The notes under the pieces: generated by a model | Database searches by the model: none | What the model saw: the letters and a program-made list of their open reading frames with translations, nothing else | What the model was told of the DNA's origin: nothing | Source: Gemmatimonadaceae bacterium | GTDB lineage: Bacteria > Gemmatimonadota > Gemmatimonadetes > Gemmatimonadales > Gemmatimonadaceae | DNA: 64,000 nucleotides | Direction of reading: 5' to 3' | NCBI GenBank assembly: GCA_035533015.1 | Contig: DATLUQ010000044.1 | Coordinates: 62,001-126,000 of the forward strand | Shown here: piece by piece, positions 7,755 to 41,390 of the stretch | How the letters are laid out: every line of letters begins with the position of its first letter | Numbering within the stretch: position 1 is the first letter of the stretch | Made by a program: the position numbers and the translations under genes

Positions 7755-8564
7755 GTGCGCTTCGTCCCGGTGCACGACGGCGTGCGTTTGCGGGTGCTTG
7801 AAGCGGGGCTGCGCGAGGGCCGGCCGATCGTGCTGCTCCACGGCTGGGGGGCGTCGGTATATTCGTACCGCGCCGCTATTCCGCCGCTCGCGGCGGCGGG
7901 CTTCCGCGTGATCGCTGCGGACCTGCCGGGGCATGGGCTGAGCGACAAGCCACCCGAACTGGAGCAGTACACGCGCGAGGCGATGATCGCCGCGGCGAAC
8001 GCGCTTCTCGACGCGCTCGACGTGCGCGACGCCGTGGTGGTGGGGGTGAGCATGGGCGGCGCCATCGCCGCCGGGCTCGCCATCGAGCACCACCCGCGGG
8101 TGGGACGCGTGGCCCTCATCGATCCCGTAGGATTCGCCCCCGTGCGATTCGTGTCCGTGGCCCAGATGGTCGCGCCGCTCGCGCTGCGCGACTACGCGTC
8201 GTTCATCGTCGCCAAGCCGCTCGTGGGCTGGTTTGTCCATCTCGCCTACTGGGACCAGTCGCGCGTCACCGACGACGATGTGGAGCAGTACTGGGCCACC
8301 GCTGCGCAGCCCGGCTTCGGCGCGGCGGTCGGCGCGTGCCTGCACTGCTTTTCGTGGGAACCGTTCGCCAAGGAGCAGCTCGCCGGCGTGCGGTGCCCCG
8401 TGCTCCTCGTGCTCGGCACGCACGATCATCTCATCGTGGGCAGCGAAGCGCGGGCACGCCACATCCCGCACCTCACCGTCGTGTCGATGAACGGTGGGCA
8501 CGCCGTGAACGAGGAGCGCCCCGAAGAGACGAACGCCGCGCTCCTCGCCTTCGCGCGTGAGTAG
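7755..8564 (+). CDS. Alpha/beta hydrolase
   Basis: This is an intact alpha/beta hydrolase of about 269 residues. It shows LLHGWGASVYSY (oxyanion region), DLPGHGLSD, the nucleophile elbow VGVSMGGA with Ser, the acid strand LVLGTHDHLI and the catalytic His in NGGHAVNEE. This layout is typical of broad-specificity carboxylesterases or C-C hydrolases, and the substrate is not evident. The frame is open further upstream, but codons before about 7711 overlap the preceding gene. The GTG at 7755 directly before the conserved VRFVPVHDGV strand is my best start; ATG 7641 is possible. It lies tail-to-head with the preceding unknown gene. Confidence 0.85.
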   Translation: MRFVPVHDGVRLRVLEAGLREGRPIVLLHGWGASVYSYRAAIPPLAAAGFRVIAADLPGHGLSDKPPELEQYTREAMIAAANALLDALDVRDAVVVGVSMGGAIAAGLAIEHHPRVGRVALIDPVGFAPVRFVSVAQMVAPLALRDYASFIVAKPLVGWFVHLAYWDQSRVTDDDVEQYWATAAQPGFGAAVGACLHCFSWEPFAKEQLAGVRCPVLLVLGTHDHLIVGSEARARHIPHLTVVSMNGGHAVNEERPEETNAALLAFARE

Positions 8565-8584
8565 CGACCGGCGGTGCCTGACGT

Positions 8585-8590
8585 TAGGGT
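8585..8590 (+). promoter_or_regulatory. Candidate -10 box TAGGGT
   Basis: TAGGGT lies 10 bases before the ATG at 8601, with no Shine-Dalgarno sequence between. It resembles the boxes before other leaderless-looking starts but is spaced further away. Confidence 0.28.
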
Positions 8591-8600
8591 TCACCGAACA

Positions 8601-9770
<1,170 letters not shown>

Positions 9771-13908: not shown

Positions 13909-13914
13909 TACAAT
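13909..13914 (+). promoter_or_regulatory. Candidate -10 box TACAAT before the selenoprotein gene
   Basis: TACAAT differs from the consensus TATAAT at one base and lies six bases before the ATG at 13921. No Shine-Dalgarno sequence is present, so a leaderless or nearly leaderless transcript is likely. No good -35 box is seen. Confidence 0.42.
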
Positions 13915-13920
13915 TCGACG

Positions 13921-14145
13921 ATGCACATCACGATCGAATACTGCACGGTTTGAAACTACGAGCCGCGCGCCGCCGGTCTGGCGGCCGAAATTCGCACCCG
14001 GCACCCGGACGCCGAGATCACCATGGTACCCTCACGTGGCGGCCGTTTCGAAGTGCTGCGCGACGGGCGTCCGTTATTCGAAAAATCTAAGCTCGGCCGC
14101 CACGCGCGGCCGGGCGAGGTCCTGGAACTGCTCGACGCCCCCTAG
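13921..14145 (+). CDS. SelW/SelT/SelH (Rdx) family selenoprotein with in-frame TGA as selenocysteine
   Basis: Read through one in-frame TGA (13951-13953), this is a complete 74-residue Rdx-family protein. It begins MHITIEYCTV-U-NYEPRAAGLA, has GGRFEVLRDGRPLFEKS in the middle and ends GRHARPGEVLELL, the standard SelW outline in order and spacing. The TGA falls exactly at the second position of the CxxC/CxxU redox motif (Cys8, Sec11), where family members carry Cys or Sec. A hairpin with the GGUCU apical loop known to bind SelB begins 15 bases after the TGA. Known Rdx proteins are thioredoxin-like redox proteins. Conventional gene calling would split or miss it. The gene lies between a small lipoprotein and phosphofructokinase. 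Confidence 0.92.
13966..13987 (+). promoter_or_regulatory. Bacterial SECIS-like hairpin
   Basis: A perfect 6-base-pair stem (13969-13974 with 13980-13985) closes a GGTCT loop at 13975-13979, extended by two more pairs past a bulged C at 13968. The loop matches the GGUCU of the E. coli fdhF SECIS, and lies 21 bases after the TGA compared with 18 in fdhF. It is inside the coding frame, as expected for bacterial SECIS elements. Confidence 0.82.
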
Positions 14146-14182: not shown

Positions 14183-15262
14183 ATGCGCATCGCCCTGTCC
14201 ACCGGCGGCGGAGACGCCCCGGGTCTCAATGCCGTCATCCACGCCGCCGTCCTCTCGGCCCTCGACCGCGGGTGGGAGGTGCTGGGCATCAAGCGGGGCT
14301 ACTTCGGACTGCTCGGAGAGGACGATGTGGTCACCCTGAATGCCGATTCCGTGCGCGGCATCGCGCACCTCGGCGGAACGATCCTGCGCACGACCACTCG
14401 CGGCAATCCCTTCTCCTGGCCCATTCCCCAGCCGGACGGCTCGGTGATCGAGGCCGACCGCTCGTCCGAGCTCATCGAGAACGCCCGGCAACTCGGGATA
14501 GACGCCATCGTCGCCATCGGCGGCGATGGCTCGCTCCACCTGGCCCACAGGCTGCACGAGAAGGGCCTCCATATCGTGGGCGTCCCCAAGACGATCGACA
14601 ACGACGTGAGCGGCACGATCAGTACGTTCGGCTTCGACACCGCGGTCACCACGGCCCTCGAAGCGATCGACCGCCTGCACACCACCGCCGAGAGCCACGA
14701 CCGTGTGATGGTCATGGAGGTGATGGGCCGCCACGCGGGATTCATCGCACTGCACGCCGGCTTCGCCGGAACAGCCGACGTCATCCTCATCCCGGAGATC
14801 CCCTACGACATCGAGCGCGTGTGCGAAAAGATCCGCAGCCGCGACCGTGCGGGGCGTCATTTCTCCATCGTCGTGGCCGCGGAGGGCGCGTTCCCGCAGG
14901 GCGGCACCCCCTACGTGCGCGAACGCAGCGAATCGGGCGGCGAGGGCCGCTTGGGCGGCATCGGCGAAATCGTCGCCAGCGCCATTGAAGCGCGCACCGG
15001 CAAGGAAACGCGTTCGCTGGTGCTCGGCCACCTCCAACGCGGCGGCCAGCCCACCGGCTACGACCGCGTACTCGCCACCCGGTTCGGCGGCGCCGCCGTA
15101 GTCGCCGTCGCGAATGGAAAGTGGGGGCACATGGTCGCGCTCCAGTCACCCCATATCGTGACCATTCCCATCGTCGAGGCGCTGGCTCGACCCAAACGCG
15201 TGGAACTCGATCACGACGTGGTCCAGACGGCGCGAGCGACTGGGATCAGTTTCGGCGACTGA
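14183..15262 (+). CDS. pfkA: 6-phosphofructokinase
   Basis: The 359-residue protein is a phosphofructokinase that phosphorylates fructose 6-phosphate in glycolysis. It has the nucleotide loop STGGGDAPGLNAVI, the IGGDGS segment, the catalytic PKTIDND, MEVMGRHAGF and the substrate loop LGHLQRGGQPTGYDR. The phosphoryl-donor positions are mixed: GGDG is the ATP type, while Lys in PKTIDND is usual in PPi-dependent or mixed clades, where E. coli PfkA has Gly. The donor therefore cannot be settled by inspection. The ATG at 14183 is chosen because the conserved N-terminal strand starts there. It lies 37 bases after the selenoprotein gene. Confidence 0.93.
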   Translation: MRIALSTGGGDAPGLNAVIHAAVLSALDRGWEVLGIKRGYFGLLGEDDVVTLNADSVRGIAHLGGTILRTTTRGNPFSWPIPQPDGSVIEADRSSELIENARQLGIDAIVAIGGDGSLHLAHRLHEKGLHIVGVPKTIDNDVSGTISTFGFDTAVTTALEAIDRLHTTAESHDRVMVMEVMGRHAGFIALHAGFAGTADVILIPEIPYDIERVCEKIRSRDRAGRHFSIVVAAEGAFPQGGTPYVRERSESGGEGRLGGIGEIVASAIEARTGKETRSLVLGHLQRGGQPTGYDRVLATRFGGAAVVAVANGKWGHMVALQSPHIVTIPIVEALARPKRVELDHDVVQTARATGISFGD

Positions 15263-40295: not shown

Positions 40296-41390
40296 GTGAT
40301 CGGTCCGATCGCCGAGCCCGAAACGGCCCGGGCTCGGTTGTTGGTGCTCCGCCACGGCTGGAACGCCACGGCCTATCAGATTCTGAATCCGGGCATCGCC
40401 CACTGGTTTGCGGCGAGCGGCGATGCGGTGATCGGGTACGCCCGCTACCACGGTGTGTATGTGGTGGCGGGCGATCCGGTATGCGCCGCCGAGCGCGTGG
40501 CTGGGGTGGTGGACGAATTCGAGCATGAGGCGCGCGCCAACGGAAGCCACGTCTGCTATTTCGGCGCGGCCGAGCGTTTCGCGGGGACGTTGCGGGGGGA
40601 CACCGGGCGCGCGTTCGTGATCCTGGGCGGGAATCCTGTGTGGGATCCGGCGGCATGGTCGTCCATCGTGGCACACCGGGCATCGGTGCGCGCTCAACTG
40701 CACCGGGCAGTCAACAAGGGTGTGACGGTCATCGAGTGGCCGGCAGCCCGGGCCAACGGGCACGCGGATCTGTGGCGCTGTCTGCGCGAATGGGGGACCA
40801 CGCGCGGCCTGCCGCCGATGCACTTCCTGGTGGAGCCGCGCACGCTCGACCGGCTGGACGACCGCCGCGTTTTCGTGGCCGAGCGAGCAGGCCACGGGGT
40901 GGCGGGGTTCCTGCTCGCCTCGCCGGTTCCGCAGCGTCGGGGATGGCTGGTGGAGCAACTCATCCGTGGGCGCGGCGCGGCCAACGGCACCAACGAACTG
41001 CTGGTCGATGCAGCGATGCGCACGTTCGCGGCCGAGGGCGCGGCCTACGTGACGCTGGGGCTGTCGCCGCTCTCGCGGCGGTCGCACCTGGACGAGATGG
41101 TCAATCCGGCGTGGCTGCGCGTGGTGCTGTCGTCGGTCCGGGCGCACGGGCGTCGGTTCTACAACTTCGACGGCCTCGACGCATTCAAGGCCAAGCTCAT
41201 GCCGCAGGGCTGGGAGCCTGTTTACGCCATCGCCGATAACCGGCGGGTGCTGCCGCGTACGTTGTTCGCGGTCGCCGCGGCATTCAGCGGCGGATCGCCG
41301 ATCGCATTCGTAGCTCGGGCCATGCTGGGGGCGGCGCGCACCGAGGCGGCCTGGGCGCTGGGGAATGCGCGGAGCACCATTCGCCGATGA
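40296..41390 (+). CDS. DUF2156/MprF C-terminal-like transferase
   Basis: The 364-residue protein resembles the cytoplasmic GNAT-like domain of MprF (phosphatidylglycerol lysyltransferase): NATAYQILNPGIAHWFA, VIGYARYHGVYVVAGDPVCA, VCYFGAAERF, then RRGWLVEQLIRGRGAANGTNELLVDAAMRTFAAEGAAYVTLGLSPLS and FYNFDGLDAFKAKLMPQGWEPVYAI. The usual N-terminal flippase helices are missing. It may transfer an aminoacyl or acyl group to a lipid, but that is not established for stand-alone forms. It is followed by the symporter gene. Confidence 0.83.
   Translation: MIGPIAEPETARARLLVLRHGWNATAYQILNPGIAHWFAASGDAVIGYARYHGVYVVAGDPVCAAERVAGVVDEFEHEARANGSHVCYFGAAERFAGTLRGDTGRAFVILGGNPVWDPAAWSSIVAHRASVRAQLHRAVNKGVTVIEWPAARANGHADLWRCLREWGTTRGLPPMHFLVEPRTLDRLDDRRVFVAERAGHGVAGFLLASPVPQRRGWLVEQLIRGRGAANGTNELLVDAAMRTFAAEGAAYVTLGLSPLSRRSHLDEMVNPAWLRVVLSSVRAHGRRFYNFDGLDAFKAKLMPQGWEPVYAIADNRRVLPRTLFAVAAAFSGGSPIAFVARAMLGAARTEAAWALGNARSTIRR

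Follow-up and report, generated by a model that had tools for sequence, protein, structure and literature searches.

Bacterial SelW-like selenoproteins with a CxxU motif were reported from the Sargasso Sea and Global Ocean Sampling data as the most abundant family there, and they are also covered in reviews (PMC1088965, PMC2398784, PMC1794560, PMC9312934). Very few Cys forms of these proteins were found in organisms that use Sec (PMC1794560), and the role of the bacterial proteins was described as unclear (PMC1088965). The features of the bacterial SECIS element have been described as well (PMC1088965, PMC9312934). Selenoproteins of this kind are thus long known, and the literature confirmed the statement of an earlier note on the DNA studied here that Sec-containing Rdx proteins occur in bacteria (PMC1088965, PMC1794560, PMC2398784, PMC9312934). 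The gene described below adds to them.

The gene was found in a stretch of 64,000 nucleotides from a Gemmatimonadaceae bacterium, which is referred to as the window. On the forward strand, the start codon ATG (13921), the TGC codon, the TGA codon and the stop codon TAG (14143–14145) are located in one frame (Table 1). Translation with TGA read as U gives the 74-residue product MHITIEYCTVUNYEPRAAGLAAEIRTRHPDAEITMVPSRGGRFEVLRDGRPLFEKSKLGRHARPGEVLELLDAP, with the CTVU motif at residues 8–11. This protein matched the Pfam family Rdx (PF10262) over its full length (E = 5.8e-18; 65.3 bits against a cut-off of 22.6), as well as NCBIfam NF041051 (91.3 bits, cut-off 88) and TIGR02174 (52.7 bits, cut-off 34.2), and the frame and the end-to-end Rdx match uphold the earlier claim of a complete Rdx protein that appears once the TGA at 13951 is read as Sec. 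The same claim placed Sec at the second position of the CxxU motif; this holds for the second of the two catalytic positions, but Sec is the fourth residue of the motif. An AlphaFold2 model built with an alignment of 40 relatives had a pLDDT of 96.8, and the top Foldseek matches of the model were SelW-related structures, the best of them being 2fa8 (TM 0.87). The protein is accordingly predicted to have the thioredoxin-like fold, with the CxxC/CxxU motif after the first strand, as is characteristic of PF10262. The Sec site aligns with Cys in the Cys-type SelW-related proteins of known structure, as the earlier note had proposed to check. No second copy of Rdx was found in the genome (3.03 Mb, 66 contigs). 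Taken with the evidence given below, these characteristics allow us to assume, with a probability of about 97%, that the stretch 13921–14145 encodes a real selenocysteine-containing SelW/Rdx protein.

Table 1. Features of the selW-like locus; positions are those of the window.
Feature	Position	Strand	Basis
Possible -10 element TACAAT	13909–13914	+	6 nt before ATG; weak, inference only
selW-like (Rdx) selenoprotein gene	13921–14145	+	TGA=U translation, 74 residues, Sec11, stop TAG
Cys8 codon TGC of the CTVU redox motif	13942–13944	+	Cys in 89/89 TGA-bearing relatives read
In-frame TGA as Sec11	13951–13953	+	TGA in 89/95, TGC in 6/95 Rdx loci
Bacterial SECIS-like hairpin	13966–13987	+	Stem CG+GCCGCC / GGCGGC+CG, bulged C 13968; fold and covariation
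pfkA, 6-phosphofructokinase (PFK_mixed subfamily)	14183–15262	+	TIGR02483, 437.8 bits, over the cut-off

If the TGA codon is read as Sec, the genome should also encode the Sec machinery, and all four genes predicted for it (selA, selB, selC and selD) were found elsewhere in the genome. The contig C58 contains the tRNA-Sec gene (7779–7871; 74.4 bits) with the anticodon UCA (TCA according to ARAGORN), the SelD gene (7966–8886; 377 bits) located 94 nt from it, and the SelB gene (320.6 bits joined), while SelA is encoded on the contig C47 (536 bits). Thus, SelA, SelB, SelD and tRNA-Sec are all present in the genome, as expected for a selenoprotein producer.

A hairpin with a GGTCT loop 21 bases downstream of the TGA, compared in the earlier note with the SelB-binding loop of E. 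coli fdhF, is indeed present at 13969–13985 and is conserved with compensatory changes. Its core stem GCCGCC/GGCGGC is formed by 13969–13974 and 13980–13985, and the loop at 13975–13979 begins exactly 21 nt past the TGA; the core GGTCTG is common to this hairpin and that of fdhF. The outermost pair, 13968–13986, is C.C in the window, and the fold shows a neighboring alternative pairing. A hairpin of this kind, immediately 3' of the UGA and with a G in its small apical loop, corresponds to the described bacterial SECIS. The Rfam search of the window gave no match. The folding energy of the single sequence was tried as a proof of the SECIS and was rejected, as it was not significant against shuffled sequences (z from -0.2 to -1.8). 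The GGTCT hairpin of E. coli fdhF, folded alone, was not the minimum either, so folding energy is a poor test here, and comparative tests were used in its place; it is the comparative evidence that sets the hairpin apart from shuffles.

In the alignment of 89 TGA-bearing genes, the loop codon was GGT, AGT or AGG in every gene, namely GGT in 34/34 genes with Gly, AGT in 43/43 with Ser and AGG in 12/12 with Arg, while these codons account for 11%, 2% and 6% of the Gly, Ser and Arg codons elsewhere in the same genes. The next codon was CTG or TTG in 88 of the 89. The stem was paired in 93.5% of cells, and both sides were changed in 33 cells compared with 8.2 in shuffles, a control that ignores kinship; the pairing collapsed when the partner was shifted by 1 to 3 columns. 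The third-position pair 13971–13983 was paired in all 89 sequences and occurred as C-G, G-C, U-G, U-A and G-U. The G-C form is shared by two different families (f1 and f8), which points to either an old origin or repeated emergence. One could suppose that the hairpin is conserved only through protein constraint (the AASLAAE helix) and codon bias, the SelB signal being elsewhere, since the stem lies within a conserved Ala-rich helix and GC-rich Ala codons pair easily. However, 13971 and 13983, both of them synonymous third positions, show covariation through five pair types, the loop codons run against codon usage, and in the Cys-bearing gene discussed below the loop codon is lost while the amino-acid pattern persists, which makes such an explanation highly unlikely. 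Judging from the fixed loop codons and the third-position covariation in the alignment, the hairpin is subject to selection at the RNA level.

To evaluate the distribution of the gene, 395 genomes of the phylum were compared, and Rdx was found in 193 of them; nearly every Rdx match, among the matches listed, contained exactly one TGA. Reading 95 Rdx loci base by base revealed TGA at the Sec site in 89 and TGC in 6. This agrees with the scarcity of Cys forms reported for Sec users (PMC1794560). Comparison of the gene with those of two genus members showed no in-frame stop past the TGA and gave a dN of 0.15–0.17 and a dS of 0.73–0.80 for this part (dN/dS of about 0.2); judged by these values, the sequence past the TGA evolves as translated sequence under purifying selection. 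A single TGC-to-TGA change, by mutation or by a sequencing error in the assembly, would turn a Cys-type rdx gene into exactly such a gene, and other bacteria commonly have Cys homologues. Nevertheless, a pseudogene disabled in this way is refuted by the conserved TGA and the intact downstream frame in relatives, and we consider it extremely improbable: the same TGA recurs at 88 further loci, from independent genomes of the phylum, the frame past it is under purifying selection, the hairpin carries compensatory changes and the Sec machinery of the genome is complete. The two findings that the earlier note named as fatal to a Sec-containing Rdx protein, namely the absence of SelB and tRNA-Sec from the genome or decayed homologues in close relatives, were both looked for, and neither was encountered; in relatives, the TGA is retained and the frame downstream of it is intact.

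SelA or tRNA-Sec was detected in 188/193 genomes with Rdx versus 116/202 without it (Fisher p = 5.5e-24), and every TGA-bearing genome checked contained some Sec machinery. Two TGA genomes (G038 and G348) lacked SelA and tRNA-Sec calls, yet both contained SelB, which makes gaps in the assemblies the likely reason. Five of the six TGC loci (L025–L029) belong to a different Cys subtype, of the CRW/RWLLRA type, like the proteins of known structure. SelA and SelB were absent from the Cys genome G052 and from G320, whose partial Rdx match had no stop; the tRNA-Sec match of G320 (47.3 bits) was at a level reached by ordinary tRNAs. The genus member G024 possesses SelA, SelB and tRNA-Sec, and Rdx was not detected in it, so the gene is either dispensable or absent from the assembly. 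When named genomes were scanned with a pattern demanding Cys at the Sec site, only Cys homologues were matched, in Nitrospira, Nitrospirales and Caulobacteraceae.

Several other observations were made in the same set of genomes. SelA or tRNA-Sec without Rdx occurred in 116 of the 395, so the phylum probably makes use of other selenoproteins. Two divergent Rdx genes with TGA, L115 (G196) and L116 (G116), encode proteins whose second half is longer or altered; in L116, the loop-closing pair is G-C in place of C-G and the AGT loop codon is kept. The locus L119 (G013) has an intact TGA and hairpin and an apparent internal deletion after approximately residue 32. The deletion is in frame and the gene still precedes pfkA; an error of assembly or incipient decay may account for it.

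The Rdx locus of G129 (L107) is of particular value. This genome is a single contig with 100% completeness, in which there was no match to SelA or tRNA-Sec and none to SelB above the cut-off. The gene has TGC at the Sec site (motif CVGC), is located directly before pfkA, as the Sec loci are, and falls in the pfkA tree within a supported clade of otherwise Sec-bearing relatives. Because of the absent machinery, this gene position and the nesting in a Sec clade, Sec was most likely replaced by Cys upon loss of the machinery in this lineage. The loop codon of L107 is GCG instead of GGT, AGT or AGG, with the amino-acid pattern kept, as would be expected where SelB binding is no longer needed. G129 is therefore a clean natural experiment in which the machinery is absent, the codon is that of Cys and the loop codon is lost.

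The UGA codon might have a meaning other than Sec, through near-cognate read-through, general reassignment (e.g., to Trp or Gly) or termination after a 10-residue peptide. Reassignment of UGA does occur in some bacteria, and Sec decoding is read here from computation. Against this stand Cys at the site in homologues, the presence of tRNA-Sec, SelA, SelB and SelD, the fdhF-like loop after the TGA and the Cys codon where the machinery is absent; moreover, TGA terminates genes elsewhere in the window, for example at 41388–41390 between genes of different families. We regard a meaning other than Sec as very improbable. The window contains at least 22 further read-through candidates, and three of these pairs were checked with Pfam as possible split genes. 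Five of the six pieces matched a family (two of the five below the Pfam cut-off) and the two pieces of a pair never matched the same one, so these three pairs showed no sign of split genes.

The pfkA gene begins 37 nt downstream of the selW-like gene. This arrangement, in which the selW-like gene immediately precedes pfkA on the same strand, was found at 65 of the 90 loci with this type of Rdx and in four families of the phylum (f1–f4); the median gap was 15 nt, and many of the gene pairs overlapped by 4 nt. No pfkA neighbor was found within 1.5 kb of the Cys homologues in Nitrospira and Caulobacteraceae. The gene order makes pfkA a probable operon partner of the selW-like gene, and its conservation suggests, as a hypothesis only, a functional link with glycolysis. 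It would go further, and is a guess that we hold to be rather unlikely, to see in the SelW-like selenoprotein of the phylum a protein dedicated to phosphofructokinase as its redox partner or regulator; if true, such a partnership would tie glycolytic flux to selenium and the oxidative state, and would explain the conserved and often overlapping gene pair. Upstream of the gene, TACAAT or TACACT was found at a similar place in the two other gene-bearing genus members (L055 and L056), and a promoter consensus scan found nothing. The three gene-bearing genus members had no clear Shine-Dalgarno sequence; several other relatives had GGAGG there. A -10 element so close to the ATG would leave the transcript without a leader, and a leaderless mRNA of the selW-like gene is possible in this genus.

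With Sec as the meaning of the codon, SelB loaded with Sec-tRNA(Sec) would bind the hairpin, which starts approximately 15 nt past the UGA, and deliver selenocysteine there. Ribosomes would then produce a thioredoxin-like protein with a Cys-x-x-Sec redox site, presumably a thiol/selenol oxidoreductase, and would stop at the TAG just before pfkA, with which the gene is probably co-transcribed.

Literature searches, with subscription journals mostly outside their scope, found no paper on selenoproteins of Gemmatimonadota and none that joins SelW with phosphofructokinase. The near-universal Sec form in the phylum and the conserved pfkA linkage are unreported in the literature searched. With these genes, the known SelW-like selenoproteins are extended by a set that spans a phylum; genes of this kind are truncated at the UGA in ordinary gene calling. 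The pfkA link offers a concrete hypothesis on the role of the bacterial proteins.

A comparison with known systems indicated that the gene is closest to the bacterial SelW-like (Rdx) selenoproteins of PF10262, with which it shares the family, the CxxU motif, TGA-coded Sec and a SECIS immediately after the TGA whose small apical loop contains a conserved G. However, the published proteins are from other bacteria and marine samples, whereas the form described here is nearly fixed as Sec across a single phylum, in most cases with a link to pfkA. The model NF041051 (SelTWH_Campy, SelT/SelW/SelH family (seleno)protein) is exceeded at its curated cut-off and likewise covers about 70 residues, but its name points to Campylobacter-type proteins and the present genome is from a different group. 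Agrobacterium Atu0228 and other Cys-type Rdx proteins (2fa8, 2ojl, 2obk) have the same fold according to the model (TM 0.87), 35% identity and an aligned redox motif, and differ in having Cys for Sec and a longer chain. Like the E. coli fdhF SECIS, the hairpin has a GGTCTG core and directly follows the UGA, but the fdhF loop begins 18 nt past the UGA instead of 21 nt and belongs to another protein, and the stem of the hairpin described here is GC-rich.
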